DNA from: Bryobacterales bacterium
GTDB taxonomy: Bacteria; Acidobacteriota; Terriglobia; Bryobacterales; Bryobacteraceae
Direction: 5' to 3'
DNA length: 40,327 bases
Assembly (NCBI GenBank): GCA_027324255.1
Contig: DAHVTI010000078.1
Coordinates: forward strand, 1-40,327
The position numbers and the translations under genes were made by a program. Below the pieces are notes generated by a model, which ran no database searches, was not told the DNA's origin, and was given only the letters and a program-made list of their open reading frames with translations. Below are positions 1,302-40,300 of the stretch, piece by piece (the first letter of the stretch is position 1; each line of letters begins with the position of its first letter).

Positions 1302-1372
1302 TTGCCGCGCGGGCCGCCAGGGGAAAGGGCTTGACTCCGCTGCCGGCGCGGAAAGCATGGATCCATGGATTT

Positions 1373-1390
1373 GCGGAGACACCTCTCCGC
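1373..1390 (+). other. Perfect hairpin between nsrR and the transporter gene
   Basis: The 7-base arms GCGGAGA (1373-1379) and TCTCCGC (1384-1390) enclose the loop CACC, 44 bases before the GTG start of the next gene. No T-run follows, so it is a poor intrinsic terminator. It could be a processing or stabilising element within the nsrR-nar transcript. Confidence 0.35.
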
Positions 1391-1434
1391 CGGCCCACTC
1401 CGCGCGAGTGCGGCCATCGACTGGGAGATTTCAG

Positions 1435-8809: not shown

Positions 8810-10237
8810 ATGTCGAATCATCCGGTGATCATACAAGGCGGCATGGGCGTAGCGGTGTCGAACTGGAAGCTGGCCAACGCCGTGGCGAAATTGGGGCAAT
8901 TGGGCGTCGTGTCCGGCACGGCGCTGGACGTGGTGATGGTGCGGCGGCTGCAGGACGGCGACATCGGCGGGCACATCCGCCGGGCATTCGACCACTTTCC
9001 GTTCAAGAAGATGGCGGAGCGGCTGTGGGAGAAGTACTTCGTGCCGGGCGGCAAGACCGAGAGCGCATCCTACCTGGCGCTGCCGATGCACACCAAGGAC
9101 GGCCCGCGGGAGTCGCGCGAGCTGCAGATCATCTCGAATTTCGTGGAGATCTTCCTGGCGAAGGAAGGGCACTCGAATCCGGTCGGCATCAATTACCTGG
9201 AGAAGATCCAGACGCCGCACCTGGCCTCGGCCTACGGCGCGATGCTGGCGGGGGTGGGCTACGTTCTGATGGGCGCGGGCATCCCGATGCGCATCCCGGG
9301 CGCGCTGGACCGGCTGGCGGTGCACGAGACGGCCACCTACCCGCTCTACGTGGCTGGCGCGCAGGAGGGCGACGACAACACGATGACGTTCGACCCGCGC
9401 GAGTACATGGAATGCGACCTGCCGCCGCTGGAGCGCCCCTACTTCTTCCCGATCATCGCCTCCAACACGCTGGCGATCACGATGGCGCGGAAGGCCAACG
9501 GGCGGGTGGACGGCTTCGTCATTGAAGGGCCGACGGCGGGCGGCCACAACGCGCCGCCGCGCGGCAAGCTGCAACTGAACGAAGCGGGCGAGCCGTTATA
9601 TGGCGAGCGCGACAAAGTGGACCTGGCCAAGATGCGCGAGCTGGGCCTGCCGTTCTGGCTGGCGGGCAGCTACGGCGCGCCGGAAAAGCTGCGCGAGGCG
9701 CTGGACGAAGGCGCGGCCGGCATTCAGGTGGGCACGGCTTTCGCGTACTCGGAGGAGTCCGGCATGCGGGCGGACTTCAAGGCCGAGGTGATCCGGATGG
9801 CGAAGGAAGGCACGGCGCGGGTGTTCACGGACCGGCTGGTGTCGCCTTCGGGCTTCCCGTTCAAGGTGGCGCAGGTGGCGGGGACGATCTCCGACGCGGA
9901 GATCCAGAGCAAGCGGCCGCGCATCTGCGACCTGGGGTACCTGCGCGAGGCGTACCGCACGCCGGAGGGAGAGGTGGCGTTCCGCTGCCCGTCTGAGCCG
10001 GTTTCCATTTATTTATCGAAGGGCGGCAAGGAAGAGGACACCGAGGGCCGGGCCTGCATCTGCAACGCGCTGATGGCGACGGCCGGGCACCCGCAGATCC
10101 GGGCCGGCAAGCACCTGGAGAGCGGCGTCGTCACATCGGGCGACGAGATCGCCAACCTGGCGCGGTTCCTGCCCGACGGCGCGGACACCTACACCGCCGA
10201 GCACGTGGTGAACGTGCTGCTGGCGGGCCTGGCATAG
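8810..10237 (+). CDS. Nitronate monooxygenase / 2-nitropropane-dioxygenase-like FMN enzyme
   Basis: 475 residues. It opens with PVIIQGGMGVAVSNW, the FMN-barrel start of this family, and contains IEGPTAGGHNAP, where H246 matches the catalytic His of the AGGH motif. Later GIQVGTAFAYS matches the phosphate-binding strand. The family oxidises nitronates or acts as enoyl-reductase-like flavoproteins (the PfaD branch). This longer form of 450-480 residues has a C-terminal extension with CxC (ACIC near 415) whose role I do not know. Substrate is not assigned. No clear Shine-Dalgarno precedes the ATG; GAAAAT lies 9 bases before it. Stand-alone gene; the proximity to the nar-like operon may be coincidental. 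Confidence 0.8.
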   Translation: MSNHPVIIQGGMGVAVSNWKLANAVAKLGQLGVVSGTALDVVMVRRLQDGDIGGHIRRAFDHFPFKKMAERLWEKYFVPGGKTESASYLALPMHTKDGPRESRELQIISNFVEIFLAKEGHSNPVGINYLEKIQTPHLASAYGAMLAGVGYVLMGAGIPMRIPGALDRLAVHETATYPLYVAGAQEGDDNTMTFDPREYMECDLPPLERPYFFPIIASNTLAITMARKANGRVDGFVIEGPTAGGHNAPPRGKLQLNEAGEPLYGERDKVDLAKMRELGLPFWLAGSYGAPEKLREALDEGAAGIQVGTAFAYSEESGMRADFKAEVIRMAKEGTARVFTDRLVSPSGFPFKVAQVAGTISDAEIQSKRPRICDLGYLREAYRTPEGEVAFRCPSEPVSIYLSKGGKEEDTEGRACICNALMATAGHPQIRAGKHLESGVVTSGDEIANLARFLPDGADTYTAEHVVNVLLAGLA

Positions 10238-10246
10238 TCCGGGCCG

Positions 10247-10284
10247 GCGCATCGGGTATATTCTGATCGGGTCTCCCGATGCGC
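10247..10284 (+). promoter_or_regulatory. 10-bp perfect inverted repeat over a promoter-like box and a start codon
   Basis: GCGCATCGGG (10247-10256) pairs perfectly with CCCGATGCGC (10275-10284) around an 18-base loop. The loop begins with TATATT, a -10-like box, and repeats ATCGGG at 10266-10271, which can pair instead with CCCGAT (10275-10280) around TCT. The ATG of the next gene (10279-10281) is inside the right arm. It may end the upstream transcript, act as an operator, or form two alternative mRNA hairpins controlling translation. Confidence 0.45.
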
Positions 10285-12456
10285 ACGACACATTTTGCGT
10301 TTCTTCTCGCAGCGATTCTGCCAGCCGTTCCCGCGTGGGGCGGCTGGACTGCATTTGGGGAGCCGGATGCCGGGCGGGCGGGCCTGGTGTGGCTGAACCG
10401 TCCGGCGAGCGTGAAGACGGCCGCGACGGCGATGCAGATGGACCCAGGGCTGGAGCTGCCGGTTGTGCGGGCGGCGGCTGTGGCGGAAGGCTCGCCGCGC
10501 TTCCGGCTGGAGGGGCAGGGGGAGTTCATCGTCGAGGTGTTCGTGCAACTGGTGGCGCGGACGGACGCCGGCCTGACGCTGCGCAGCGGCGGGAAGCTGC
10601 TGGACGGGCGGCTGCTGGCGGCGCCGCTGCGGCTGTATCCGGGATCGAAGCGGCAGCGCATGTGGGCGTTGAGCGGCGTGGCGCAGGGCGGCGAAGAGTT
10701 GGAGCTGCGCTCGACGTATCCGCGGTTCCTGCTGGTGGCGGCGCGCTGGACGCCGCGGGAGGAGTTCGAGCGGGAGCTGGCCCCGCGGCTGGCGGCGCGG
10801 CTGAAGAAGATGGCGGCGGATCCGTTCTTTGAAGGGCGCCGGTCGGGCCGTGCGCCGCGCTTGAAGGAGTTGGGCGACCTGGCGCTGCACAGCCGCCAGG
10901 CGGAGGTGCGGCGGGAGGGCCTGCTGGGCGCGGCGCGCGGGGCCTACTGGCAGGCGGCGGAGAATCACGAGCCGCGCGATTTGCGGTGGACGGGCGAACT
11001 GCTGGACCGGGCGCTGGAGAAGATGCCGGATCACCCGATGGTGCGTCAGATGGCTTCGGCGGCGTGTCTCGGGCTCAATACCGGGTCGAGCCGCGGGATG
11101 CCGTGCACGCCGGCGATGAAGCGCGTGAGCGGCGTGCGCTGGGAGACCTCCGACAGGACGGACCTGGCCGGCGCGCCGGCATGGGCGGCCGCCGAGTGGC
11201 GGCTGCGGGCCAGGGTGGAAGATCTGACGCGCTACTGGGTGAAGGAGCGGCAGAGGGCGAACGGAGAGCTGGCGGGAGGGTGGGGCGACGACGTGGAGAT
11301 CCTGCGGCAGTGGGGCCCCATCGCGCTGGGCCTGGGCAGCGGCGTGGCGGCGGAGGGGACGCGGCGCGTGGCGCTGGGGGTATGGGAGAGCGGCATCCTG
11401 AAGGACGGCTACAACGCGCGGATCGAGGACGTGGAACACTCTGCCGAGCCGAGCTCCGACACGCTGGGGCTGCTGGCGGCGCTGGACCCCTTCGGCGAAG
11501 AGACGCGGCGCAAGCTGGGGATTGCGGCGGCCTGCGCGGACCACTGGATCGCGCCGCAGCCGGACGGGCAGTGGCGGTTCCGGTCGAGCTGGTTCAACTG
11601 CAGGGAGCACGACGCGTCGGCGGAGCGGGCGGTGGACGTGCACCTGAACGCGCGGGCGATGGGGCCGGCACTGTGGCACGCCTGGCTCGCGCGGGACAAG
11701 CGGCTGACCGGGCTGATCGAGCGGTGGGGCGAATCGTGGTTGGCGGCGATGCGCTCAACGGCGCACGGCAAGCCGAAGGGGATGATCCCGGCGGCGGTGC
11801 GGTCGGTGGACGGCAATTACCTGCTGGGCGCGACATGGGACAAGCCGGACGTCGAATGGGACTACTTTCAGTGGACGCGGGGCTCGCAGGAGTCGCTCGC
11901 GCACCTGTTCCTGGCGCTGGAGGATCTGACGGGCAAGGCAAAGTGGGGGGAGGCCGCGCGGGAGGCGTTCGCGGGGGTGGGCCTGCCGCCGCCGGCCATG
12001 CCCGCGGCGGTGGACGAAGCGGCGCTGGCCGCGGAGATGGAGCGGGCGGAGGCCAGGCTGGCGGTGAACTTCGACATGCACACGCGGGAAGCGATCTACA
12101 CGGACCGGGTATATTACGCCCTGCCGGCGGCGCTCACGCCGCACCTGTTCGGCGGCAGTGTGCCGCGCGGGGACAGGGCGCCGGGCTTCGCGGTGACCTG
12201 GCCGGAGTCGGGCACGCGTTTCGCGCGGCTGGTGACGGCGGCCGGGACGTCGAAGCTGGAGGCGCGGCTGTACAGCTTTGAGGACGCGGCGGGCGAGGCG
12301 AAACTGCGGCTCTGGCGGCTGAAGCCCGGCGCCTACCGGTGGAGCGTTGGAAACAGCAGCGGCCGGCTGCGGGTGGAGCGGCAGCCGGCGGAGCTGGCGG
12401 TGCCGCTGCCCTCGCGGCGCGAGGTCCGGCTGGCGGTGGAGCCGGCGGCACGTTGA
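10279..12456 (+). CDS. Secreted protein of unknown function, alpha-helical glycosidase-like
   Basis: 725 residues with a clear signal peptide (MRTTHFAFLLAAILPAVPAWG). The N-terminal third looks like a beta-rich carbohydrate-binding-like region. The middle (about 200-570) is rich in helices and aromatic residues (GGWGDDVEILRQW, EPSSDTLGLLAALDP, NCREHDASAERAVDVH), reminiscent of alpha/alpha-barrel glycosidases or lyases. The end is beta-rich. I do not recognise a family and cannot name catalytic residues. Its start codon lies in the right arm of an inverted repeat. The gene ends 2 bases before the end of a convergent pseudogene. Confidence 0.65.
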   Translation: MRTTHFAFLLAAILPAVPAWGGWTAFGEPDAGRAGLVWLNRPASVKTAATAMQMDPGLELPVVRAAAVAEGSPRFRLEGQGEFIVEVFVQLVARTDAGLTLRSGGKLLDGRLLAAPLRLYPGSKRQRMWALSGVAQGGEELELRSTYPRFLLVAARWTPREEFERELAPRLAARLKKMAADPFFEGRRSGRAPRLKELGDLALHSRQAEVRREGLLGAARGAYWQAAENHEPRDLRWTGELLDRALEKMPDHPMVRQMASAACLGLNTGSSRGMPCTPAMKRVSGVRWETSDRTDLAGAPAWAAAEWRLRARVEDLTRYWVKERQRANGELAGGWGDDVEILRQWGPIALGLGSGVAAEGTRRVALGVWESGILKDGYNARIEDVEHSAEPSSDTLGLLAALDPFGEETRRKLGIAAACADHWIAPQPDGQWRFRSSWFNCREHDASAERAVDVHLNARAMGPALWHAWLARDKRLTGLIERWGESWLAAMRSTAHGKPKGMIPAAVRSVDGNYLLGATWDKPDVEWDYFQWTRGSQESLAHLFLALEDLTGKAKWGEAAREAFAGVGLPPPAMPAAVDEAALAAEMERAEARLAVNFDMHTREAIYTDRVYYALPAALTPHLFGGSVPRGDRAPGFAVTWPESGTRFARLVTAAGTSKLEARLYSFEDAAGEAKLRLWRLKPGAYRWSVGNSSGRLRVERQPAELAVPLPSRREVRLAVEPAAR

Positions 12457-20162: not shown

Positions 20163-22484
20163 ATGAAACCGATTCTTTCGATTCTGCTGGCGCTGCTGCT
20201 GACGGCGCCGGCGCCCGCCCAGACAACCGCCGCGAAAACCGCCCCGCTGGATGTGAACACCATCATGCGCGGCCCCGAGCTGTACGGGCACGCGCCGCGC
20301 GCCGTGCGCTGGTCCGGCGACGGCCGGAGAATCTACTTTGAGTGGAAGCAGGCCGCCGAGCCGCTCGAGAAGGATTTCGACACGTGGGTGGCGAACCGGG
20401 ACGGCTCCGGGCTGCGGAAGCTGAGCAAGGAAGAGGCGCTGCAGACTCCGCCGGCGAGAGCGGCGGAGACGCCGGACCGGCGGCTGGCGGCCTTCAGCGA
20501 GGACGGCGATGTGTGGATCTACGACCGGACGGCGGACAAGCGCAGGCGGCTGACGAAGACGGGGGAAGCGGAGTCCGCGCCGCGGATGACGCGCGACGGC
20601 AGGCGGGTGACGTTCCAGCGGGGCAGCAACCTGTTTGCGCTGTCGCTGGAAGACGGCGCGCTGGAACAGCTCACCGACATCCGCAGCGGCGGGCCATCAG
20701 ACGGCGAGCGCAAGGGCACGGAGAGCCAGGAGGCGCTGAAGAAAGAGGAGCGGGCGTTGCTCGACACCATTGCGCGCCGCGCCAGGCAGAGAGAAGAGCG
20801 CGAGGCGGAGCGCAAGAAACTGAACCCGCGCCAGCCTTGGAACCTGGGTCCGCGGCAGACGGTGACGGGACTGGCGCTGTCGCCGGACGAGAGCTACATC
20901 GTGGCCACGGTGATGGAGCGCGCGGCGGAGGCGAAGCGGTCGATTGTGGCGAACTACGTGACGGAGTCCGCCTACACGCAGGAAACCCCCGCGCGCACGC
21001 TTGTGGGCGACGTGCAGAACCGCATGCGCACGGCGATTCTGCAGGTGAAGACGGGCGAGCACCAGTGGATCGACCACCAGCAGAAAGAGAAGCAGGGAGA
21101 GAAGGAACTGGAGCGCGCGGTTTCCCTGCAGAACCCGCAGTGGTCCGAAGACGGCACGAAGCTGGCGATGCTGGGCCGCGCGGCCGACTACAAGGACCGC
21201 TGGGTGTTCGCGGTGGACCCCGGCACGGGCAAGGCGCGCGCGCTGTTCCACCTGCACGACGACGCCTGGGTGGGCGGTCCCGGCGGCTACACGCTGGGCT
21301 GGATGGCGGGCGGCAAGGCGGTGTACTTCCAGGCGGAGCGCGACGGCTGGTCGCACCTGTACGCGGTGGATTGGGAAGGCGGCGAGCCGCGCGCGCTCAC
21401 CGCAGGCAAGTGGGAAGTCGAATCGGCAGTGCTTTCGAAAGACAAGCAGACGTTTCTGCTGACGACGAGCGAAGCGAGCCTGCACGAGCGGCACATTTAC
21501 ACGATGCCGGCCGGCGGCGGGCCGCGCACGCGGCTGACCACCGAACCGGGGGACTACGAGGCCGTGCCGTCGCCGGACGAGCAGGCGCTGGCCGTCGTCC
21601 ACAGCTACACCAACCGGCCGCCCGAGCTGTACGTGATGGAAAACCGCGTGGGGGCGCCGCTGGTGCGCATTACGACGTCGCCGTCGAAGGATTTTCTGGC
21701 GCGGAGCTGGCTGGATGTGCCCATCGTGGAGATTCCGGCGCGCGACGGCGCGCGGGTGCCGGGGCGGCTGTACAAACCGGCGGGATGGAAGCGGGGCGGC
21801 CCGGCGGTGCTGTTCGTGCACGGCGCGGGCTACCTGCAGGACGTGCACCGCTGGTGGTCGAGCTACGCCCGCGAATACCTGTTCCACCACCTGCTGATGG
21901 AGCGCGGCTACCTGGTGCTGGACATCGACTACCGCGGCTCGGCCGGCTACGGCCGCGACTGGCGCACGGCCATCTACCGCCACATGGGCGGCCAGGACCT
22001 GGACGACCACGTGGACGCGGCGCGCTGGCTGGTGCAGGAGCACGGCGTGGACGCGAAGCGCATCGGCCTGTACGGCGGCAGCTACGGCGGCTTCATCACG
22101 CTGATGGCGATGTTCACGCAGCCGGGCGTCTTCGCTGCCGGCGCCGCACTGCGCCCGGTGACGGACTGGGCTCACTACAACCACCCCTACACGGCCAGCA
22201 TCCTGAACCTGCCGCAGAAGGACCACGAGGCCTACGCGCGCAGCTCGCCCATCTACCACGCGGCCGGACTGCAGGGCGCGCTGCTGATCTGCCACGGCAT
22301 GGTGGACATGAACGTGTTCTTCCAGGACACCGTGCAACTGGTGCAGAAGCTGATCGAGCTGCGGAAGGAAAACTGGGAGGCGGCCATGTACCCGGTGGAG
22401 GACCACGGGTTCGTGCAGTCCACGAGCTGGGCGGACGAGTACAAGCGCATCCTGAAGCTGTTCGAGACGAACCTGAAGAAGTAG
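20163..22484 (+). CDS. Secreted S9-family peptidase (prolyl oligopeptidase / dipeptidyl-peptidase type)
   Basis: 773 residues with signal peptide MKPILSILLALLLTAPAPAQ. Residues about 30-530 form a WD40-like beta-propeller (repeats such as APRMTRDGRRVTF, SPDEQALAV). Residues 535-773 are the alpha/beta-hydrolase domain with Ser640 in YGGSYGGF, Asp715 in HGMVDMN and His748 in EDHGF: a complete triad. RGSAGYGRDW before it is typical of S9B/S9C peptidases. Likely role: periplasmic cleavage of oligopeptides for nutrition. It is divergent from the hydrolase gene (58 bases between starts) and convergent with the regulator gene 12 bases beyond its stop. Confidence 0.92.
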   Translation: MKPILSILLALLLTAPAPAQTTAAKTAPLDVNTIMRGPELYGHAPRAVRWSGDGRRIYFEWKQAAEPLEKDFDTWVANRDGSGLRKLSKEEALQTPPARAAETPDRRLAAFSEDGDVWIYDRTADKRRRLTKTGEAESAPRMTRDGRRVTFQRGSNLFALSLEDGALEQLTDIRSGGPSDGERKGTESQEALKKEERALLDTIARRARQREEREAERKKLNPRQPWNLGPRQTVTGLALSPDESYIVATVMERAAEAKRSIVANYVTESAYTQETPARTLVGDVQNRMRTAILQVKTGEHQWIDHQQKEKQGEKELERAVSLQNPQWSEDGTKLAMLGRAADYKDRWVFAVDPGTGKARALFHLHDDAWVGGPGGYTLGWMAGGKAVYFQAERDGWSHLYAVDWEGGEPRALTAGKWEVESAVLSKDKQTFLLTTSEASLHERHIYTMPAGGGPRTRLTTEPGDYEAVPSPDEQALAVVHSYTNRPPELYVMENRVGAPLVRITTSPSKDFLARSWLDVPIVEIPARDGARVPGRLYKPAGWKRGGPAVLFVHGAGYLQDVHRWWSSYAREYLFHHLLMERGYLVLDIDYRGSAGYGRDWRTAIYRHMGGQDLDDHVDAARWLVQEHGVDAKRIGLYGGSYGGFITLMAMFTQPGVFAAGAALRPVTDWAHYNHPYTASILNLPQKDHEAYARSSPIYHAAGLQGALLICHGMVDMNVFFQDTVQLVQKLIELRKENWEAAMYPVEDHGFVQSTSWADEYKRILKLFETNLKK

Positions 22485-22496
22485 GCGGGGCGGCGC

Positions 22497-23618
22497 TCAG
22501 GCCAGCACCGCGCCGGTCTGGGCCGTGTCGTAGCCGGCCAGCACCTCCAGCTTGCGGCGCAGCGCGGACTTCTGCAGCACGTCGAGAAAATCCCGAATGG
22601 CCGGCACGTCGAGCGACCTGCGGCGCAGGACGAAGTCGTAGCGCTCGCTCTGCAGCGGGATGAAGTCGATCCCGAAGGCGCGGGCCGCGGAGCGCGTGGC
22701 CAGGCAGCAGTCCGCCTCGCCCGCATACACGGCGTAGGACGCCGGCAGGTGGCCGTGCGCGATGCGCGCGTAGCCGGCGAGCTTCGCCGGGGAGATGCCG
22801 GCCTGCCCGAGCAGGCTATCGAGCAGCGCGCGGCTGCCCGAGCCGGGCTCGCGGTTGATGCAGCGCACGCCGCGGCGCGCCAGGCAGGCGGCTGAGCGGA
22901 TGCGCTTCGGGTTGCCGGGCGCGACGACGAAGCCCTCCTCCCAGTGGGCGAAGGTGACCACGGCGAAATCCTCGCCGGGGTAGTCGCGGCGCAGGATGGG
23001 CAGGTTGAATTCGCCCGTCTGCGCATCCTTCAAGTGGGTGCCGGCGATGTGCACCTTGCCGGCCTTGAGCCAGTCGAGAGCGAGGCGGCTGGCAGCGAAG
23101 GCGGAGATGATCTCGACGCCGCTGAGCCGCTCCACCATGCGCGTGAGCAGGCCGATGGCGGGATCGCAGCCGGCCAGCACTAGGCGCTTGGAGAAGGTGT
23201 CTTCGGGCGAGAACAGAACCAGTTCGGCGCGGCCCTCCCTGCGGCGGGGTCCGGAGACTACGCCATCGGCCTCAGGCAGGAACGCGGCCAGGGCATTGAC
23301 GGGGACGCTCACCAGCCGCGAGCCGAGGCGGCACACCTGCACGGCCTGGCCCTTGACCGCCGGAGCGGGGCTGAGCAGCTCCGACTCGATCGCCTGGGGC
23401 GCGCCGGCCTCCTCGGCAGCCAGCGAGAACAGCTCCTCCACCGGCACCTCCAGCTCGCGCGCCAGCTTCAGCGCCACTTCGGTATTGGGCACAAACGAGC
23501 CGGCCTCGATGGCGTAGATGGTCTGGCGGCTGACGCCGGCGCGCTGCGCCAGTTGCGAGGCGGCGAGGCCACGGCTGCGGCGGAGGGCGCCGAGTTGGTT
23601 GCGGATGCCGGACTGCAT
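22497..23618 (-). CDS. HTH (XRE) regulator with periplasmic-binding-protein-like sensor domain
   Basis: 373 residues. Residues 3-62 are an XRE helix-turn-helix (LAQRAGVSRQTIYAIEAG). From about 130 on the protein resembles the PBP-like domain also found in molybdate-linked regulators and at the end of some MoeA proteins: LVLAGCDPAIGLL, GKVHIAGTHLKD, INREPGSGSRALLD, SYAVYAGEADCCLATRSA. Such proteins are thought to bind an oxyanion such as molybdate or tungstate, but the ligand is not shown for this one. If so, it would respond to supply of the metal needed by the Mo enzyme at 3653. The ATG at 23618 is chosen, with AGAGGG just upstream. It is downstream of the TonB receptor gene (46 bases). Confidence 0.75.
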   Translation of the reverse strand: MQSGIRNQLGALRRSRGLAASQLAQRAGVSRQTIYAIEAGSFVPNTEVALKLARELEVPVEELFSLAAEEAGAPQAIESELLSPAPAVKGQAVQVCRLGSRLVSVPVNALAAFLPEADGVVSGPRRREGRAELVLFSPEDTFSKRLVLAGCDPAIGLLTRMVERLSGVEIISAFAASRLALDWLKAGKVHIAGTHLKDAQTGEFNLPILRRDYPGEDFAVVTFAHWEEGFVVAPGNPKRIRSAACLARRGVRCINREPGSGSRALLDSLLGQAGISPAKLAGYARIAHGHLPASYAVYAGEADCCLATRSAARAFGIDFIPLQSERYDFVLRRRSLDVPAIRDFLDVLQKSALRRKLEVLAGYDTAQTGAVLA

Positions 23619-32252: not shown

Positions 32253-32279
32253 TCTACCAACTTGCTGTACAATGTCGTC

Positions 32280-32780
32280 ATGAAGCTAAGCGCCCAGGAA
32301 GAATACGGGTTGCGATGCCTGTTGTACATGGCCAGACATGGCGAGACGCAGAGCCACAGCATCCCTGAGATCAGCCGCGCCGAGGGGCTTTCGGTCCCGA
32401 ACGTGGCAAAACTGATGAGAATCCTGCGGCTGGGCGGTCTTGTCGCGAGCGTCCGCGGACAGGCCGGCGGCTACACTCTGTCGAAGCCGGCTGACCAGGT
32501 GAGCGTGTCCGAAATTCTCGCCCTGCTCGGAGGCAGTTTCTTCAACTCGCACTTCTGCGACCGGCACGCGGGGTTGGAGCGCTCGTGCGCCCACTCGAGC
32601 GACTGCTCGGTGCGGCTGCTGTGGGGGGCCGTCCAGAAGAGCCTGGACGCCATCCTGACGCGGACGACGCTGCGCGACCTGCTGAAGAACGAAGAGGAGA
32701 TGCGCGTCTTCATCAAGGAAGCGGTGGCGTTCGCGGCCCTCGAGCCGGCCGGGCAGGTGACGCGCGTCAACGGCCACTAG
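32280..32780 (+). CDS. Rrf2-family Fe-S cluster-type transcriptional regulator
   Basis: 166 residues. An N-terminal winged helix (MKLSAQEEYGLRCLLYMA start is typical of IscR/Rrf2; wing GQAGGYTLSKP) precedes a cysteine cluster C-x9-C-x5-C (HFCDRH, SCAHSSDC) that differs from both IscR spacing and the NsrR gene at 831. It probably senses Fe-S, redox or iron state. The ATG is taken as start because the Rrf2 N-terminus begins there; no Shine-Dalgarno is seen. It precedes the cobalamin cluster by 130 bases and may regulate it or act elsewhere. Confidence 0.85.
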   Translation: MKLSAQEEYGLRCLLYMARHGETQSHSIPEISRAEGLSVPNVAKLMRILRLGGLVASVRGQAGGYTLSKPADQVSVSEILALLGGSFFNSHFCDRHAGLERSCAHSSDCSVRLLWGAVQKSLDAILTRTTLRDLLKNEEEMRVFIKEAVAFAALEPAGQVTRVNGH

Positions 32781-32910: not shown

Positions 32911-33786
32911 ATGGCGGTGCGAGTAGTGGCGGTGACCAGCGAGCGTGCGGGGGAGGGAAAGACCCATTTTGCGGGGGGCGTGGCCCGCTGGCTGAAGACT
33001 CGCGGCCATCACGTTGCCCCGCTTCACCTTTCGGCGCGCAGCGGGGATCCGGTGGAGTGTCCGGGAGGCGGGAGCGTGACCCGCGCCGCGGCGCTGCTGG
33101 CCGAATCCTGCGGGCTGGCCGCGGCGCCCGAGTTCGAATCCGGCTGGCAGGCCGTCGAGAGCCTCCTGCGGGAGCACGACCTGGTGGTGGTGGAGGCTCC
33201 GGCCGGAAGCGCGGCCCCGCCGGGCTCGATCGAACTGCGGCTGCGGAGCCGCGGGCGGCGCATCGAGGTCGCCACCGGGGGCAGCCTGCCGTACTTCGAG
33301 CCCGACCTGATGCCGGCGCCGGATCCGGACCTGGAAAGCCTGCCGCCCTGGCGCTTTGGCGCCGGGCCGCGCCTGGGGGTGATTTCCCTGCCCCATATCA
33401 GCAACTTCGGCGAGTACCGGGCCTTCCGCGGGGCCGAGTGGCTGGCCTCGCCGGCCGTCGGGCGGTTCGGCATCGTCTTTGTGCCGGGGTGCTCGAACGA
33501 GCCGTCCGACCTGGCCTGGATGCGGGAAACCGGCCTCCTCGACTGGCTGGCCGGCCAGGCGCAATCGGGCGCCAGAATCGTGGTGTCCGGCTGGGGGGAC
33601 GCCTCGGCCCTGGCGGGCGTCAAGACGCAACTGGCCGAGGGCGAACTGCTCGACTACCGGATCGCATCGAGGCTGCTGGGCCTGCGCATGCCGGCGCCGC
33701 TGCCGGCCGAAGAGCTCTTGGAACGGCTGGGCGAATGGGCCGGTGAGTGGCCGGGCATGGAAGAACTGGCCGGCAGCCTCTACTGA
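32911..33786 (+). CDS. Shrunken CobQ-like (cobyric acid synthase-like) protein without catalytic Cys
   Basis: 291 residues; genuine CobQ is about 490. N-terminal P-loop ATPase: VTSERAGEGKTHF (K17), then HDLVVVEAPAGSA as the Walker-B region. From about 158, LGVISLPHISNFGEYRAF matches the CobQ segment that leads into the class I glutamine amidotransferase domain, and VPGCSNEPSDLAWMRETGL matches its LPG-x-K-x-T-x-DL-x-L block. At the place of GICGG it has VVSGWGDAS (224-232): the nucleophile Cys is gone and the C-terminal His/Glu region is missing. It is first in the cobalamin cluster. The start ATG (MAVRVVAV) is chosen for the ATPase fold; GGAGG lies about 13 bases upstream. Likely a non-amidating relative; function unknown. 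Confidence 0.65.
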   Translation: MAVRVVAVTSERAGEGKTHFAGGVARWLKTRGHHVAPLHLSARSGDPVECPGGGSVTRAAALLAESCGLAAAPEFESGWQAVESLLREHDLVVVEAPAGSAAPPGSIELRLRSRGRRIEVATGGSLPYFEPDLMPAPDPDLESLPPWRFGAGPRLGVISLPHISNFGEYRAFRGAEWLASPAVGRFGIVFVPGCSNEPSDLAWMRETGLLDWLAGQAQSGARIVVSGWGDASALAGVKTQLAEGELLDYRIASRLLGLRMPAPLPAEELLERLGEWAGEWPGMEELAGSLY

Positions 33787-33883
33787 CGCCAGCGGCGGGA
33801 AAGAGAGTAGTAGAGTAGGAACAGGGCCGGAAGGCGCCTGCCGCCGTGGCCCGTTTCCTTCTCGGAGATCGAGATGACACCCA

Positions 33884-33916
33884 GGCCGGCTCCGGGCCAT
33901 GTCCGGAGGGCCGGCC
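33884..33916 (+). other. Strong GC hairpin upstream of cobD
   Basis: GGCCGGCTCCGG (33884-33895) pairs with CCGGAG and CCGGCC of 33903-33916 (a two-base GG bulge) around a 7-base loop. It lies in the 175-base gap 33787-33961, which contains no recognisable gene or cobalamin-riboswitch core. It may be a terminator of the CobQ-like gene or a leader element of cobD. Confidence 0.4.
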
Positions 33917-33961
33917 CGCGCCGGGCAGAGCCAGGCGCCAGGGATGGTGGGGAGGAACCGT

Positions 33962-34975
33962 TTGACGATCACGCATGGTGGGAACATCTTCGCGATCGCG
34001 CGCGATCGCGGCTGGGACTGGCGCTCGGTGCTCGACCTGAGCGCGAGCATCAATCCCCTGGGACCCGCGCCCGGCGTGCGCGCCGCCGTGGAACGCGCGA
34101 TGGACCGCATCGCCCACTACCCCTGCCAGCGGCCGGGCGAACTCGAAGCGGCGCTGGCCGCCGAGTGGCGCGTCGCGCCGGAGCAGGTACTGGCAGGCAG
34201 CGGGGCCACCGAACTCATCCACTTCGTCGCGCGCTCCGGCTGGAACGGCCCGGCCGCCCTGGCCACCCCCGTCTGGAGCGAGTTCTACCGGGTGTTCCCC
34301 CATGCGCTGCGCGTGTCGCTGGACACGGTGGAAAGCTGGCCGCAGCGCGGGCTGCTGGTGTTGAGCCAGCCCGTCAACCCCACCGGCGAGGCCATCCCCG
34401 AGGAGCTGATCCGGCGCACCATCGCCGGCCGCGAAGGCCCGGTGCTGATCGATGAGAGCTTCATCGACTTCACGCGGCTGGAATCGGCGGTGGCCTGGAC
34501 GGATCGCCACCCGAACCTGCTGGTGCTGCGGTCGCTGTCGAAGTTCCACGCCCTGCCCGGCTTGCGGGTGGGTGCGCTGGTGGGCTCGCGCGAGTGGATG
34601 GACCGCCTGGCGCGGCGCCGCGAGCCGTGGCAGGTGAGCGCGCTGGCCGAGGCCGCCGCGCTGGCCGCCCTCGCCGACCGCGAACACGCCGCGCGCACGC
34701 GCGAGTTCGTGGAGCGGGAGCGGCAGTGGCTGCTCGACCAACTGGATAGCCTCGACGGCCTGAAACTGTATCCGGGCGCGGCCAACTTCCTGTTTGCCGA
34801 GATCGACCCGCCGGCAGCCGAGGTCTGCGACTGGTTCCTCGACCGCAGGATCATCCTGCGCAACTGCACTGGGCTGCCCGGGGTCGCCGGCCAGGCGATC
34901 CGCTTCGCCGTGCGAACGCGCGCCGAAAACGAGCGGTTTGTCCAGGCCGCCAGGGAGTACTTTTGCCAAGGCTGA
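33962..34975 (+). CDS. cobD: L-threonine-O-3-phosphate decarboxylase
   Basis: 337 residues, fold-type I PLP enzyme. It begins with HGGNIFAIARDRGWDW and SASINPLGP, a CobD hallmark that separates it from histidinol-phosphate aminotransferase. PLP Lys is K194 in LRSLSKFHALPGLRVG; VNPTG and FAVRTRAENE are also present. It makes (R)-1-aminopropan-2-ol phosphate for the nucleotide loop of cobalamin in the cytoplasm. The TTG at 33962 is chosen because GGAGG (33951-33955) lies 6 bases before; upstream ATGs give non-conserved residues. Its stop overlaps the btuF start by 13 bases, so coupled translation is expected. Confidence 0.9.
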   Translation: MTITHGGNIFAIARDRGWDWRSVLDLSASINPLGPAPGVRAAVERAMDRIAHYPCQRPGELEAALAAEWRVAPEQVLAGSGATELIHFVARSGWNGPAALATPVWSEFYRVFPHALRVSLDTVESWPQRGLLVLSQPVNPTGEAIPEELIRRTIAGREGPVLIDESFIDFTRLESAVAWTDRHPNLLVLRSLSKFHALPGLRVGALVGSREWMDRLARRREPWQVSALAEAAALAALADREHAARTREFVERERQWLLDQLDSLDGLKLYPGAANFLFAEIDPPAAEVCDWFLDRRIILRNCTGLPGVAGQAIRFAVRTRAENERFVQAAREYFCQG

Positions 34976-35826
34976 CGGCCGCCATCCTCTTTTGCTGCTG
35001 CGCGGCGTGGGGAGCCGCGCCCGCCCGCATCGTCTCCACCGCCCCCTCCATCACGGAAGTCCTTTTCGCCCTCGGCCTCGGCAGCCGCGTGGCCGGCGTC
35101 ACGCAGTACTGCCGCTACCCGGCAGAAGCGCAGTCCAAGCCCAAGATCGGCACCTTCCTGGAGCCGGACCTGGAGCGCATCCTCGCGCTGCGGCCGGACC
35201 TGGTGCTGGTCATCAGCAACCCCGTGCAGGTGGCCGAGCGCCTGAGGCGGCTGGGCGTGCGGGCCGAGAACGTGAAGCAGGAGTCGATCGCCGACATCTT
35301 CCAGTCCATCGCACTCATCGGGAAGCTGACGGGCACGGAGCAGCGCGCCGGCCGGCTGGCGTCCGGCATTCGCGCCAAGCTCGAAGCGGCCCGGCGCCAG
35401 GCGGCCGGCAAGCGCCGCCGCAGCGTCCTGTTTCTGGTGGGCCGCTCACCGGGCACGCTGCAGGGCATGGTGGGCGCGGGACCGGGCACGTTCGTCGACG
35501 AGCTGCTGACGCTGGCCGGCGGAGCGAACATATTGAAGGACTCGCCGATGGCCTACCCCAAGGTGTCGGTGGAGCAGGTGCTGGCCGCCGACCCGGAGGT
35601 GATCCTGGACATGGGCGACTTCGCGCACGTCGAAGGCAAGCCGATGGAGCCGGCTGACAAAGTTCTGGGGCTGTGGTCGAGGTACCCGCGGCTGCGCGCT
35701 GTTCGCAGCGGCGGCGTGCGGCAGGTGGGCGATGAGATCTTCATCCGCCCGGGGCCGCGGGTGGGCGAGGCCGCCCTCGAGATGGTGCGGCTCATCCAGG
35801 CGGCGGGAGCCGCGCGGGCACAATGA
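34963..35826 (+). CDS. btuF: Cobalamin/cobinamide ABC transporter substrate-binding protein
   Basis: 287 residues with a short signal peptide (RLTAAILFCCCAAWGA). The mature part starts RIVSTAPSITEVLFALGLG, the class III binding-protein opening typical of BtuF/FecB. LRPDLVLVISNP and an inter-lobe helix are visible. It binds corrinoids in the periplasm and delivers them to BtuCD. The TTG start at 34963 has GGGAG 5-7 bases upstream and overlaps the cobD stop; its own stop overlaps the ATPase start (ATGA). Siderophore binding is the alternative, but the cob neighbours favour corrinoid. Confidence 0.88.
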   Translation: MPRLTAAILFCCCAAWGAAPARIVSTAPSITEVLFALGLGSRVAGVTQYCRYPAEAQSKPKIGTFLEPDLERILALRPDLVLVISNPVQVAERLRRLGVRAENVKQESIADIFQSIALIGKLTGTEQRAGRLASGIRAKLEAARRQAAGKRRRSVLFLVGRSPGTLQGMVGAGPGTFVDELLTLAGGANILKDSPMAYPKVSVEQVLAADPEVILDMGDFAHVEGKPMEPADKVLGLWSRYPRLRAVRSGGVRQVGDEIFIRPGPRVGEAALEMVRLIQAAGAARAQ

Positions 35827-36593
35827 ACGTGCGCTTCGAGCTCGACCGCGTGGGCATGCGCTATGGCGACGCCCAGGTGCTCAGCGAGGTCACGCTCGCC
35901 TTCGAACGGCCGGAAATGGTGGCGCTCACGGGGCCGAACGGCGCCGGCAAATCCACGCTGCTGGGTATCATGGCCGGGCTGCGCGGCGGCCACGGCGGCA
36001 CGTGCCTGCTGAACGGCCGGGCGGCCGGCGAGTGGCGGCGGCGGGACTACGCGCGCGTGGTGGCCTTCGTGCCCCAGAGTCTGAAGCTCGACTTCCCCTT
36101 CACCGCCGAGCAGGTGGTGCTGATGGGGCGCACGCCCTACGCCGGCGGCCTGTTCGAAAGCCCCGGGGACTGGGCGGCGGTCCGCCGCGCCATGGAGGTG
36201 ACCGACACGCTGGCCTTCCGCGAAAGGGATTTCCGCTCGCTGAGCGGCGGCGAGCGGCAGCGCGTGGTGCTGGCCTCGGCCCTGGCGCAGGAGCCGCGCG
36301 CCCTGCTGCTCGACGAGCCCACCACGTTCCTCGACCTCGAGCACCAGGTCGCCATCTACGCCCTGCTCCGGCAACTGGCGCGGGACGGCCTGCTGGTGAT
36401 CTCGGTGACGCACGACCTCAATCTCGCCGCCGTCTACTCCGACCGCGTGGTGGCGCTGCAGCGCGGCCGCCTGGTGGCCGACGCCCCGCCCTGCGACGCG
36501 CTGTCGGTGGAGCGCATCCGCCAGATCTTCGGCGTCGAAGCGGAGTGGCTCCGCCGCTCCGACGGAAAGGCCTGGATCTCGTATGGCAATTGA
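35823..36593 (+). CDS. btuD: ABC transporter ATPase for cobalamin uptake
   Basis: 256 residues. Walker A GPNGAGKST, Q-loop VPQSLKLDF, signature LSGGERQRV, Walker B ALLLDEPTTFLDLE and switch His in VTHDLN are all intact. The FecE/BtuD branch is indicated by the neighbouring FecCD-type permease. It powers corrinoid import from the cytoplasmic face. It overlaps both neighbours (ATGA with btuF; 11 bases with the permease). Confidence 0.93.
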   Translation: MNVRFELDRVGMRYGDAQVLSEVTLAFERPEMVALTGPNGAGKSTLLGIMAGLRGGHGGTCLLNGRAAGEWRRRDYARVVAFVPQSLKLDFPFTAEQVVLMGRTPYAGGLFESPGDWAAVRRAMEVTDTLAFRERDFRSLSGGERQRVVLASALAQEPRALLLDEPTTFLDLEHQVAIYALLRQLARDGLLVISVTHDLNLAAVYSDRVVALQRGRLVADAPPCDALSVERIRQIFGVEAEWLRRSDGKAWISYGN

Positions 36594-37587
36594 GCCGGTG
36601 ACGGCCGGAAGGGCGGCGCGAATCCTGGGCGTGGCGGCGGCGGTGACGGCGGCCGTGGCGCTGCTGACGCCGCTGGCCGGACCGGCCAGCATCAGCCTCC
36701 CCAAGGCCTTCGCCGGCGTCTGGCCGGACGCGCAGATGTTCTTCGGCGTGCGCTGGCCGCGCACGCTGCTGGCCATGTTGTGCGGCGGCGCCCTGGGCAT
36801 CTCCGGCGCGCTCTTCCAGGCGCTGCTGCGGGACCCCCTGGCCACGCCCTACACGCTGGGCGTGTCGAGCGGCGCCTCGCTGGGCGCCGTGGCGGCCATC
36901 TGCCTCGGCCTGCACAGCGTGGCGGGGCTGCCGGGCTTGTGGGTTTCCGCGCTGGGCGGCGCAGGCGCCGTGCTGGCCATCGTGCTGATGGTGGCGGCCG
37001 AAGGGCGCCGCATGTCGTCGTTCACTCTGCTTTTGGCCGGCGTGACCATCAACAGCATCGTCAGTTCGCTCATCATGCTGCTGCACAACCTGGCCAGCGT
37101 CGGCCAGAGCTTCGCCATCGTGCACTGGCTGATGGGCAACATCGACCCGGTGGACGCCGGCACGCTCGGCTGGCTGGCGGTGCTCATCCTGCCGCTCAGC
37201 CTCGGGCTGTGCGTGCTGGCCCGGCAGTGGAACCTGATGGCGGTGGGCGAAGAGTGGGCGGCCTCGCGCGGCGTTTCGCCGCAGGCGCTGCTGGTGGGCG
37301 GCTACGTCGCCGGCTCCGTGCTGACGGCGGCCGTCACGGCCGTCACCGGCCCCATCGGCTTCGTCGGGCTGGTGGTACCGCACGCCCTGCGCCTGCGCTT
37401 CGGCGGCGACCACCGGCTGCTGATGCCGCTCTCGTTCCTGGGCGGCGGGGCCTTCCTGGCGATCTGTGATACGTTGGCCCGGAGCCTGCTGGCCGTCGAG
37501 ATCCCGGTGAGCGTCGTGACGGCGCTGGCCGGCGGCCCTTGCTTCATCGCGCTGCTCCGCAGCAGGAGGAGGTCACTATGGCTATAG
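36583..37587 (+). CDS. btuC: FecCD/BtuC-type ABC permease
   Basis: 334 residues with about ten hydrophobic helices. It carries the family markers RWPRTLLAMLCGGALGISGALFQ split here as RWPRTLLAML and GISGALFQ, RDPLATPYTLGVSSGA, TGPIGFVGLVVPH and the final EIPVSVVTALAGGPCF. It forms the membrane channel for corrinoid import. It starts inside the ATPase gene end and overlaps the CobU start by 10 bases. Confidence 0.93.
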   Translation: MAIEPVTAGRAARILGVAAAVTAAVALLTPLAGPASISLPKAFAGVWPDAQMFFGVRWPRTLLAMLCGGALGISGALFQALLRDPLATPYTLGVSSGASLGAVAAICLGLHSVAGLPGLWVSALGGAGAVLAIVLMVAAEGRRMSSFTLLLAGVTINSIVSSLIMLLHNLASVGQSFAIVHWLMGNIDPVDAGTLGWLAVLILPLSLGLCVLARQWNLMAVGEEWAASRGVSPQALLVGGYVAGSVLTAAVTAVTGPIGFVGLVVPHALRLRFGGDHRLLMPLSFLGGGAFLAICDTLARSLLAVEIPVSVVTALAGGPCFIALLRSRRRSLWL

Positions 37588-38093
37588 CGGTAGTCGGGGG
37601 AGGCCGCCGTTGCGGCAAGAGCAGGTACGCGCTGGCCCTGGCCAGCGCCCACGGGCCGCGGCTGGGCTTCATCGCCACGCTCTGCCCGGACGATGAGGAG
37701 AGCCGGCAGAAGGTGGAAACCGCCCGCCGCGAGCGGGGCGCCTCGTTCCTCACCGTGGAGGAGCAGTTCGAGGTGCCGGGCGTGCTGGAGGCCCGCGCGG
37801 AACTGCTCGACGCCATCGTCGTGGACGACCTCACCACCTGGGTTTCGAATCTCGTCATCGCCGGCCGCACCGACGCCGAGGTGGAGGTGGCCGCCGAACG
37901 CCTCATCCAGGCGGCCGGCAAGGGCCCCGCCGAGGTCGTCATCGTCACCAGCGACGTGGACTTCGGTTTCGCCATCGACTCCCCCGCCTCGCGCCAGTTC
38001 CGCCGCCTGGCCGGCTACATCAACCGCCGCGTGGCGGAATCCGCCTCCAGGCTCTACTGGATGGTCTTCGGCGCGCCCAACAGAATCCGATGA
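37578..38093 (+). CDS. cobU: CobU-like adenosylcobinamide kinase, atypical (no guanylylated His)
   Basis: 171 residues, family length. P-loop GGGRRCGKS (7-15) and a later VDDLTTWVSNLV (Walker B) plus GFAIDSPASRQFRRL and INRRVAESA fit CobU/CobP. In the enterobacterial enzyme the GMP-carrying His lies in the RIxxH block; the matching region here is RQKVETARRERG with A49 in the His place, so the guanylyltransferase mechanism may be altered or absent while the kinase P-loop stays. The ATG at 37578 is chosen with AGGAGGAGGT a few bases upstream. Overlaps cobT by 4 bases. Confidence 0.82.
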   Translation: MAIAVVGGGRRCGKSRYALALASAHGPRLGFIATLCPDDEESRQKVETARRERGASFLTVEEQFEVPGVLEARAELLDAIVVDDLTTWVSNLVIAGRTDAEVEVAAERLIQAAGKGPAEVVIVTSDVDFGFAIDSPASRQFRRLAGYINRRVAESASRLYWMVFGAPNRIR

Positions 38094-39121
38094 TCTCAAG
38101 ACTTGCCGACCGCACACTCGAACAGATCCGCCCGCTCTTCGACGCCAACCTGGCCGCCACGCTGGCCGGGCGGTGGGCCGCGCAGAACCGGCTTCCGGGC
38201 AGTCTGGGGCGGTTCGAGCACCTCGTCGTCCACTACGGGCTGGTGAAAGGCACGGCGCAACCGGTGGCGGCGCGCAAGGGGCTGGTGGTCTTCGCCTCCG
38301 ATCACGGCATCGTGCACGAGGGGGTGACGGCGGAGGCGCAGGACGACACGCAGCGCCAGGTGCGCCAGTTCCTGCAAGGCGGGTCGGCGGCGGGCGTGCT
38401 CTGCCGCTCGTGCCACATCGACCCGCTGCTGGTGGATGTGGGCCTGGCGGCCGAGCCGGAAACAGGCGCCGTCGGCCGCAAGATCGCGGGCGGGTCGCGG
38501 AGCATGTCGCAGACGGCCGCCCTCAGCGCGGAGCAGACCGTCGCGGCGCTGGAAACCGGCATCCGGCTGGCTGAAGAGCTGGCGCTGCGTTTCGAAGTGG
38601 TGGGGCTGGGGCAGCTCGGCGTCGGCGGCTCCTGCGCCGCCGCGGCCCTGCTCAGCGCGTTCTCCGGCCGCGACGCGGCCGACTGCGCGCAGCGCGAGCC
38701 CGGCCTCGACGAGGCCACCTTCAACCGCCGCGTGCAGGTGATCCGCACGGCCGTCAACCTCCACCAGGGCGAAGCAATCACGCCGCTCGGCATCCTCCGC
38801 ACGCTCGGAGGACTGGACCTCGCCGCCCTCACCGGGTTCATCCTCGGCGCCGCCGCCCGGCGGCTGCCCGTCGTCGTCGACGGCTTCACGGCGGGCGCCG
38901 CGGCGGTGGCGGCCCGCGCGCTGTCGCCGGATTCGCTCGACGCGCTCATCTTCCCCCACGTCGACCCGTCCCGGCCCCACTCCTACCTGCTGCATTTCCT
39001 CTCTGTGCAGCCGCTGCTGGACCTGCGCATCCAGGAGGAGGGCGGCTTCGGCGCGGCCCTGGGCCTCGCCATGCTGGACCTCGCCCTGCACCAGTACGCC
39101 GAGGTGCAGGGCCCGGCCTGA
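38090..39121 (+). CDS. cobT: CobT-like nicotinate-nucleotide:base phosphoribosyltransferase, divergent
   Basis: 343 residues. LPGSLGRFEHL, FASDHGIVHEGV and LQGGSAAGVLCR match CobT motifs for the lower-ligand base site and phosphate site. Two places differ from the canonical enzyme: the GEMGIGNTT block reads GQLGVGGSC (Gln175 for Glu), and the C-terminal GEGTGA that carries the catalytic Glu reads QEEGGFGA with the Glu shifted by one. Its role would be to make alpha-ribazole phosphate from a benzimidazole or other base. It is the last gene of the cobalamin cluster; no CobS is seen in the window. Confidence 0.82.
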   Translation: MISRLADRTLEQIRPLFDANLAATLAGRWAAQNRLPGSLGRFEHLVVHYGLVKGTAQPVAARKGLVVFASDHGIVHEGVTAEAQDDTQRQVRQFLQGGSAAGVLCRSCHIDPLLVDVGLAAEPETGAVGRKIAGGSRSMSQTAALSAEQTVAALETGIRLAEELALRFEVVGLGQLGVGGSCAAAALLSAFSGRDAADCAQREPGLDEATFNRRVQVIRTAVNLHQGEAITPLGILRTLGGLDLAALTGFILGAAARRLPVVVDGFTAGAAAVAARALSPDSLDALIFPHVDPSRPHSYLLHFLSVQPLLDLRIQEEGGFGAALGLAMLDLALHQYAEVQGPA

Positions 39122-39199: not shown

Positions 39200-40300
39200 T
39201 TGATCAATCGACTCGTCATTGAAAACCTCAAGCACCGCAAGCTGCGCACCGGCCTCAGCGCTCTGTCCATCGGATTTCAGGTGACCATGATTCTGGCCGT
39301 CACCGGCCTGAGCCGCGGTATGCTGCAGGACTCGGTGAACCGCGCGAAGGGCGTCGGCGCCGACATCTGGATCAAGCCGCCAGGCGCGTCGGCCATCTCG
39401 CTGAGCGGCGCATTCATGCCTGAAAAGGTTCTCGATTACTTCCAGAGCGTCCCCCACGTCGCCCTGGCGACGGGCACCACCATTCAACTGGTGGGCGGTA
39501 TCAGCACCGTCAGCGGCATCGACTACGGCCAGTTCGTCAAGCTCAGCGGCCCGTTCAAGTTCCTGGAGGGCGGCCCCTTCCAGTCGCCCGACGACGTCAT
39601 CGTCGACCGCTGGTACGCCGAGCAGCAGAACCTGCATGTCGGCGGCACGGTGAAACTGGTGAACCACGACTGGCGCATCTGCGGCATCGTGGAGCCGGGC
39701 AAGCTGGCGCGCCTGTTCGTCCCCATCGGCCGCCTGCAGGAACTGACCAACAGCGAAAAGAAGCTGAGCCAGGCGTTCCTCAAGCTCGACAACCCGGCCA
39801 ACACGCGGCAGGTCATCGCCTGGCTGAAGCGGCAGCCGGAGCTGGAAGGCTACTCGATCTACTCCATCGAGGAGTTCGTCAGCCTGTTTTCGGTGAACAA
39901 CGTGCCTGGACTGCGGGCCTTCATCTACGTCATCATCGGCCTGTCGATCGTGATCGGGTTCCTGGTCGTGGGCCTGACGATGTACACCACGGTGCTCGAG
40001 CGGACGCGCGAGATCGGAATCCTGAAGGCGCTGGGCGCCTCGCCAGGAGACATCATCAACATTCTGGTGCGGGAGACCACCATGCTGGCGCTGGCCGGCT
40101 GGCTCTCCGGCATTCTGCTATCGATGGGCACGAGTTGGGCCATCAACCGTTTTGTGCGGGCCAACCTCCAGTCCCAGATCACGCCCGACTGGTGGCCCGT
40201 CGCGCTGGCCGTTTCCGTGGTCGCCAGCATGTTGGGAGCGCTGTATCCGGGCCTGCGCGCGGCCCGTCAGGATGCCATTGAGGCACTGTCCTACGAATAG
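39200..40300 (+). CDS. FtsX/MacB-type ABC transporter permease
   Basis: 366 residues. One N-terminal helix (LSALSIGFQVTMILAVTGL) is followed by a periplasmic MacB-like domain (about 40-235) and three C-terminal helices (YVIIGLSIVIGFLVVGL, ETTMLALAGWLSGILL, VALAVSVVASMLGALYPG). TREIGILKALGASPGDI between helices is the coupling region typical of FtsX/LolC/MacB permeases. Such proteins move lipoproteins, peptides or act as mechanotransmitters rather than classical pumps. The start is TTG with GGAGG 12 bases upstream. The ATPase partner is expected just beyond the window. Confidence 0.88.
   Translation: MINRLVIENLKHRKLRTGLSALSIGFQVTMILAVTGLSRGMLQDSVNRAKGVGADIWIKPPGASAISLSGAFMPEKVLDYFQSVPHVALATGTTIQLVGGISTVSGIDYGQFVKLSGPFKFLEGGPFQSPDDVIVDRWYAEQQNLHVGGTVKLVNHDWRICGIVEPGKLARLFVPIGRLQELTNSEKKLSQAFLKLDNPANTRQVIAWLKRQPELEGYSIYSIEEFVSLFSVNNVPGLRAFIYVIIGLSIVIGFLVVGLTMYTTVLERTREIGILKALGASPGDIINILVRETTMLALAGWLSGILLSMGTSWAINRFVRANLQSQITPDWWPVALAVSVVASMLGALYPGLRAARQDAIEALSYE

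Follow-up and report, generated by a model that had tools for sequence, protein, structure and literature searches.

A B12-type importer operon with CobQ-, CobU- and CobT-like proteins that lack catalytic residues in Bryobacterales

The DNA considered here, hereafter the window, is a stretch of 40,327 nucleotides from a Bryobacterales bacterium (contig DAHVTI010000078.1), and its subject is a cluster of cobalamin (cob) genes at positions 32911-39121. All seven genes lie at the place given in the initial annotation; they are on the + strand, in the order CobQx-CobD-BtuF-BtuD-BtuC-CobUx-CobTx, where the suffix x marks the three altered proteins. The neighbouring genes from CobD through CobTx overlap by 4-13 bases and a gap of 112 bases separates the end of CobQx from the start of CobD; the seven genes form one operon. 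CobQx (32911..33786) is a 291-residue relative of the cobyric acid synthase CobQ with internal deletions, and CobD (33899..34975) resembles an enzyme dependent on pyridoxal phosphate (PLP). The importer consists of a BtuF-like periplasmic binding protein (34963..35826; PF01497, 112.3 bits), a BtuD-like ATP-binding cassette (ABC) ATPase (35823..36593; PF00005, 92.8 bits) and a BtuC-like FecCD permease (36583..37587; PF01032, 258 bits); BtuF and BtuC are the best NCBIfam matches of the first and last, both below cut-off. CobUx (37578..38093), a homologue of CobU, and CobTx (38090..39121), which has the fold of CobT, complete the operon. Six of the seven proteins score above their Pfam cut-offs, CobQx being recognised by a sub-threshold GATase_3 match alone (19.4 bits, cut-off 27), while the NCBIfam models for CobQ, CobD, CobU and CobT do not reach their curated cut-offs.

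CobU is a bifunctional enzyme in which His46 serves guanylyl transfer, and the kinase step uses the P-loop. In the alignment with the Salmonella Typhimurium CobU structure 1c9k, Ala49 of the window's CobUx (37722-37724, +) takes the place of His46, the residue that carries guanosine monophosphate (GMP), which bears out the Ala-for-His replacement in the initial annotation. In alignment columns, Ala is found in all ten CobUx sequences and His in none, compared with His in 21/22 canonical CobU proteins of the same taxonomic family; the single His-less CobU outside the CobUx group, from genome G079, is itself degenerate. The P-loop (37596-37622, +; GGxRxGK) is kept in 10/10 CobUx proteins, with one Ser position occupied by Ser or Cys. 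All ten also share invariant features that canonical CobU lacks or seldom has, including Arg10, His25 and the motif SDVDFGF, which occupies the N-E-V-G place of the canonical enzyme (S-D-V-D in 10/10). CobUx reaches 124.5 bits against a cut-off of 27 for the CobU domain PF02283 and 106.8 bits with the NCBIfam CobU equivalog, which is below its cut-off of 161.

The CobT-like protein has lost both catalytic glutamates. In the alignment with Salmonella enterica CobT (1d0s), Gln175 (38612-38614, +) and Gly318 (39041-39043, +) of the window's CobTx correspond to Glu174 and Glu317, each of which is found in 0/11 CobTx proteins and 23/23 canonical CobT proteins of the family. To judge by structure titles, solved CobT structures of the E174A and E317A variants exist. 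The lack of Glu174, where the initial annotation had read Gln for Glu, is common to the group; the 'shifted' catalytic Glu described with it lies two columns to the N-terminal side of that for Glu317 and occurs in only eight of the eleven relatives, and the Glu317 position itself holds Glu in none. The GEMGIGNTT region varies between relatives. Intact catalytic residues at shifted positions are ruled out for CobU and CobT by the alignments to the solved structures and to 22 canonical CobU and 23 canonical CobT relatives. CobTx scores 287 bits with PF02277 (cut-off 22.6) and 255.6 bits with the CobT equivalog TIGR03160, below the cut-off of 319.3. Its structural model (mean predicted local distance difference test score, pLDDT, 88.7) superimposes on CobT 6b5f over 339 residues with a Z score of 44.2 and a root-mean-square deviation (rmsd) of 2.9. 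Column counts for CobUx and CobTx do not include G412; the contig-end CobTx fragment of G005 was excluded from column counts and trees, and a fragmentary match in G009 with a canonical-looking LGEG end was dropped. In the unrooted trees the ten CobUx and the eleven CobTx sequences each form one side of a branch with 100/100 support, and the missing catalytic residues are fixed traits of CobUx and CobTx, on one branch each. The CobU tree contains two well separated lineages within one taxonomic family, with the canonical CobU of G100 in one and CobUx in the other.

CobQx is best described as CobQ with internal blocks missing: both ends align with full-length CobQ when the alignment is read by eye, there is no C-terminal truncation, and it has 291 residues where two full-length relatives have 465 and 471. 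It lacks the full set of synthetase and amidotransferase domains that characterises CobQ, and the NCBIfam model gives 40.4 bits against a cut-off of 273. The amidotransferase His is absent in 11/11 CobQx sequences (alignment read by eye). The amidotransferase Cys is replaced by Ser226 in the window (33586-33588, +; alignment with full-length CobQ); the initial annotation was right in calling this protein short and Cys-less, but the loss of Cys cannot be extended to the group, because Cys is possible in four of the eleven CobQx rows, or five with one more gap. The P-loop GKT motif is kept in 10/11. The AlphaFold2 model has a mean pLDDT of 89.9. Foldseek returned weak matches only (best E value 5.4e-4), mostly to CTP synthase and P-loop proteins with rmsd values of 15-22, as well as superpositions of 82-83 columns on imidazole glycerol phosphate synthase subunits (rmsd 2.6-2.7); neither was used as evidence.

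CobD, which had been noted as looking intact, retains in the window the PLP-binding Lys215 (34541-34543, +; alignment columns) and 53/60 canonical-conserved columns; its best solved relative is the L-threonine-O-3-phosphate decarboxylase 1lc5, and it scores 252.4 bits with TIGR01140, short of the cut-off of 290.55. Among the 19 of 101 family genomes that encode CobD at an E value of 1e-60, the Lys is present in all nine with CobS and lost in four of the ten without a CobS match (G015 has Ser there, G012 and G056 have Ala and G033 has Asn), counts that are small and come from related genomes. On the tree these losses need three label changes, and the firm branches force at least two. The ratio of non-synonymous to synonymous differences per site (pN/pS) of CobD is 0.51-0.65 in five Lys-less pairs, mostly above the transporter genes, and 0.45 in one canonical pair. 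The CobD genes at loci L041, L137, L138 and L139 lack the PLP Lys, stand beside BtuFDC and belong to genomes without a CobS match. A role of CobD as the sole HisC of its genome is ruled out, the best hisC match lying elsewhere in 12/12 genomes searched and above cut-off in 11 of them.

A PF02277 search of the 101 family genomes matched 30, among which low-scoring full-length CobT copies (223-313 bits) were found in G000 (the genome of the window), G100 (as a second copy), G047, G082, G011 and G015, with a similar fragment in G005. Searching contigs with the CobUx alignment yielded eight loci, all from Acidobacteria or subgroups thereof, with names including Paludibaculum and Candidatus Solibacter. 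A class-wide CobUx search of 399 genomes put seven of them, which all belong to the genera g1 and g12, at or above 299 bits, with the next match at 173 bits; these high scores arise partly by construction, since the model was built from ten carriers that already include six of the seven top genomes, G412 alone being new. Thirteen CobTx carriers are known here: G000, G100, G047, G412, G082, G011, G292, G015, G005 and the genomes of loci L049, L050, L052 and L053, each counted once where contigs repeat (L055 and G292 are taken as one record, as are L051 and G047, L054 and G011, and L056 and G082). The carriers are mostly drafts, with G005 84% complete and G412 given as 100% complete. CobS has no match in 11 of the 13 and was found in G000 and G100, at another locus. 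Besides this operon, the complete genome G100 carries a canonical B12 locus made up of BtuFDC, an adenosyltransferase, a nitroreductase-family gene, CbiB, CobD, CobT, CobS and a CobC-like phosphatase; a canonical CobU lies about 11 kb from the CobT of that locus. Within the same canonical locus (L044), an AAA_33 P-loop kinase-like gene stands next to the adenosyltransferase at 9876-10421. In the window's genome, a second CobT is represented by its C-terminal end at the edge of contig C476, along with CobS and a CobC-like gene; a second CobU was not found in this 605-contig draft.

In the window the operon is preceded by an Rrf2-type regulator gene (32262..32780, +; PF02082), syntenic in part of the relatives, and followed by an FtsX/MacB-like permease gene (39200..40300, +; PF02687, PF12704). 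Seven of eleven other carrier loci (L037, L038, L039, L049, L050, L052 and L141) share with the window its phosphorylase, Rrf2 and FtsX flanks; in three more the FtsX flank alone is present (L040, L142 and L053, the last on a contig that begins inside the operon), and L041 has none of the flanks within the stretch covered. The same three flanks surround reduced forms, CobQx-CobD-BtuFDC without CobUx and CobTx in G099 and G044, and CobD-BtuFDC only in G012. In G039, a canonical CbiB-CobD-BtuFDC-CobU-CobS-CobT operon adjoins this FtsX gene on a contig that does not include the upstream flank, and the canonical loci L047 and L143 have none of the three flanks. In-place conversion is the simplest reading of these shared flanks, short of proof. 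Altered or canonical, the operon is trailed by the FtsX-like permease gene and, in relatives, by a LolD-like ATPase gene.

Selection on the altered genes was gauged from the ratio of non-synonymous to synonymous substitution rates (dN/dS), computed by the Nei-Gojobori method. In close pairs, dN/dS is 0.14-0.18 for CobTx (three pairs) and 0.09-0.16 for canonical CobT (four pairs); the corresponding values are 0.05-0.15 for CobUx and 0.17-0.23 for canonical CobU, from three pairs each. The G100/L053 pair gives 0.10 for CobTx and 0.07 for CobUx, and the single close pair computed for CobQx gives 0.17. Reading frames are open in the copies read, and a stop reported for the CobTx of G082 lies past the frame end. 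Purifying selection on CobUx and CobTx is about as strong as on their canonical relatives in close pairs. The initial annotation had held that canonical genes elsewhere in the same genome, together with decay here, would undo the case for an unusual system; canonical cobS and a second cobT are indeed present in G000 and G100, but the close pairs show no decay.

Since three proteins without catalytic residues have nevertheless been kept intact by evolution, they probably do a different job, linked to import. We propose that a cobinamide-salvage operon was converted in place and that its cob proteins, mostly deficient in catalysis, now capture cobamide, pass it on or control its uptake, a proposal to which we give an even chance. 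The points that support it are the loss of residues, the single branches of CobUx and CobTx, the invariant residues peculiar to CobUx, the synteny, the selection, the lack of a CobS match in most carriers, the canonical CobT, CobS, CobU and CbiB elsewhere in G100, the loss of the CobD Lys, and the confident, compact models of CobQx and CobTx. The ancestor would have been a late cobamide operon of CobQ or CbiB, CobD, BtuFDC, CobU, CobS and CobT, from which CobS dropped out, and in which the amidotransferase site of CobQ, the GMP-carrying His of CobU and both glutamates of CobT may have been lost. The folded CobQx, CobUx and CobTx would then have been retained under selection beside a B12-type importer, no longer building nucleotide loops but acting with BtuFDC. 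On the cytoplasmic side, the cob proteins might bind cobamide as it comes in, or parts of its loop, and the P-loops of CobUx and CobQx would be putative nucleotide-driven switches, so that cobamide would be captured, handed on or controlled in its uptake. What the data establish are the missing residues across relatives, one branch each for CobUx and CobTx, purifying selection in close pairs, the synteny with BtuFDC and the lack of a CobS match in most carriers; with the trees unrooted, the direction of change is inferred, as is the putative role at the importer, where cobamide would be received or its uptake controlled. A further proposal, that the jointly disarmed cob enzymes constitute a cytoplasmic, nucleotide-switched capture or sensing module of the B12 ABC importer, built of pseudoenzymes and joined by CobD in sister lineages, is tentative and on balance doubtful. 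Among the matches listed by a literature search, no paper describes this operon in its title or the start of its abstract.

Several observations weigh against this proposal. The importer's cargo stays short of proof, because the score of BtuD is better with the haem transporter ATPase model (240 bits) than with the corrinoid one (225 bits), both below cut-off. At longer distances, where synonymous divergence (dS) is near or past 1, the dN/dS of CobQx and CobTx rises to 0.24-0.51, and two further pairs give CobQx pN/pS values of 0.31 and 0.48. CobUx is missing in G015 and G005 though CobTx stays, no CobQx was found in G011 or L055, G044 and G099 lack both CobUx and CobTx, and all three altered proteins are missing in G012, G033, G056 and G074; with single parts missing in several carriers and relatives, CobQx, CobUx and CobTx are not obligate partners. 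Some members of the operon may be active enzymes, since CobUx retains its P-loop and the Asp82 column, and the Lys is present in the window's CobD, which is very strongly selected, Lys-bearing CobD being among the most constrained genes in carriers (pN/pS 0.08 for G100/G412). CbiB was found in G100 only among seven carriers tested, but of four canonical genomes tested, two lack it as well (G007 and G076, both with CobS), and its absence was therefore dropped as evidence. Finally, no RNA family, the cobalamin riboswitch included, reaches its Rfam gathering score in the window, where two weak matches fall below the gathering scores of their families. This says little, because among nine loci a riboswitch was found only in the canonical L046, and the eight without include the canonical L044 and L047.

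The chief rival to conversion for cobamide handling takes the possibly active members at face value: CobUx would be a kinase only and CobD an active PLP enzyme which, with CobTx and CobQx, would transform a compound brought in by the importer, or a threonine-phosphate-like metabolite, through undescribed chemistry. The P-loop and the new invariant motif of CobUx fit such a pathway, as does the CobD Lys, which is kept in 10/11 altered operons under strong selection. It is nonetheless rather unlikely, since CobTx lacks both glutamates and most of a GNTT site that varies between relatives, four relatives have lost the CobD Lys and retain the linkage to BtuFDC, and CobTx is kept in G015 and G005 without CobUx. 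Next comes the view that the operon is a relict, a dispensable salvage operon in slow decay that is carried along by a needed importer. The stepwise loss of parts would be expected of such a relict, from CobUx alone in two carriers, through CobQx (not found in G011 and L055) or CobUx with CobTx (G044, G099), to all three altered genes in four relatives, and no genes of the operon evolve faster than CobTx and CobQx. An apparently independent degenerate CobU-CobS pair in G079 points the same way. Decay is, however, hard to reconcile with open frames in the copies read, close-pair dN/dS near that of canonical enzymes, new invariant residues in CobUx and the confident folds of CobQx and CobTx, and we regard it as clearly unlikely. 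The G079 pair itself (L077, 985-2735) comprises a CobU in which the His region is lacking and a CobS with an altered-looking Asp-rich motif, in a genome with no PF02277 match.

The two ideas with which the initial annotation had accounted for the altered residues fare differently. Nucleotide-loop assembly by another route, with a different lower ligand or activating nucleotide, could draw on the acceptance of other bases by CobT-like proteins and on the best solved sequence matches of CobTx, which are ArsB and then ArsA. Yet ArsB retains in the alignment both glutamates that CobTx lacks, and by structure the CobTx model ranks CobT above ArsA (Z 44.2 versus 42.5). With no CobS match in most carriers and a canonical set of CobT, CobS, CobU and CbiB elsewhere in G100, assembly of this kind is disfavoured and very unlikely. 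The other idea, a corrinoid-handling system that reuses cob folds, is the better fit to the conservation, the purifying selection, the BtuFDC linkage and the missing active-site residues, with corrinoid binding itself putative.

The operon matters for how such genes are read. Cobinamide salvagers are a category described in PMC6461909, and surveys of cobinamide salvage by nucleotide-loop genes could miscall the present bacteria as salvagers, because CobUx and CobTx pass the Pfam cut-offs while the NCBIfam equivalog cut-offs reject them. Should the handling role hold, steps after BtuC could use recycled biosynthetic folds, and the operon would allow the reception of cobamide in the cytoplasm to be tested directly. 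Elsewhere in the window, a frame with a major facilitator superfamily transporter domain is followed by a molybdopterin oxidoreductase gene (1255-5878), and two long open frames (10279-12456 and 20342-22663) have no Pfam match at E 0.001 and are candidate genes at most.

Compared with known systems, the operon most resembles the canonical late cobamide operons of G061, G039 and G026, which share the order CobD-BtuF-BtuD-BtuC-CobU and have CobQ upstream in G061 and G026, CbiB in G061 and G039, and CobS and CobT downstream in G061 and G039. In these operons the CobU His and Glu174 and Glu317 of CobT are intact, as are the Cys and His of CobQ in G061 and G026, and CobS is present, in G026 on another contig together with CobT. 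CobUx is a full-length, P-loop-bearing homologue of the adenosylcobinamide kinase/guanylyltransferase CobU, from which it differs at His46 and the N-E-V-G place in every copy. CobTx is likewise homologous over its whole length to CobT, the nicotinate mononucleotide:5,6-dimethylbenzimidazole phosphoribosyltransferase, and its model matches 6b5f, but neither Glu position is kept in any of the eleven. The ArsAB pair, described in PMC6461909 as a known repurposing of CobT for phenolic bases, includes the closest solved sequence relative of CobTx; ArsAB consists of two tandem CobT genes, and ArsB has both glutamates, whereas CobTx is the single CobT-like gene of an importer operon, the only other PF02277 match of the window's genome lying on contig C476. 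The BtuFCD vitamin B12 importer, finally, is matched by family in all three subunits, from which a corrinoid cargo is predicted, and differs in that the importer here shares its operon with altered cob proteins.

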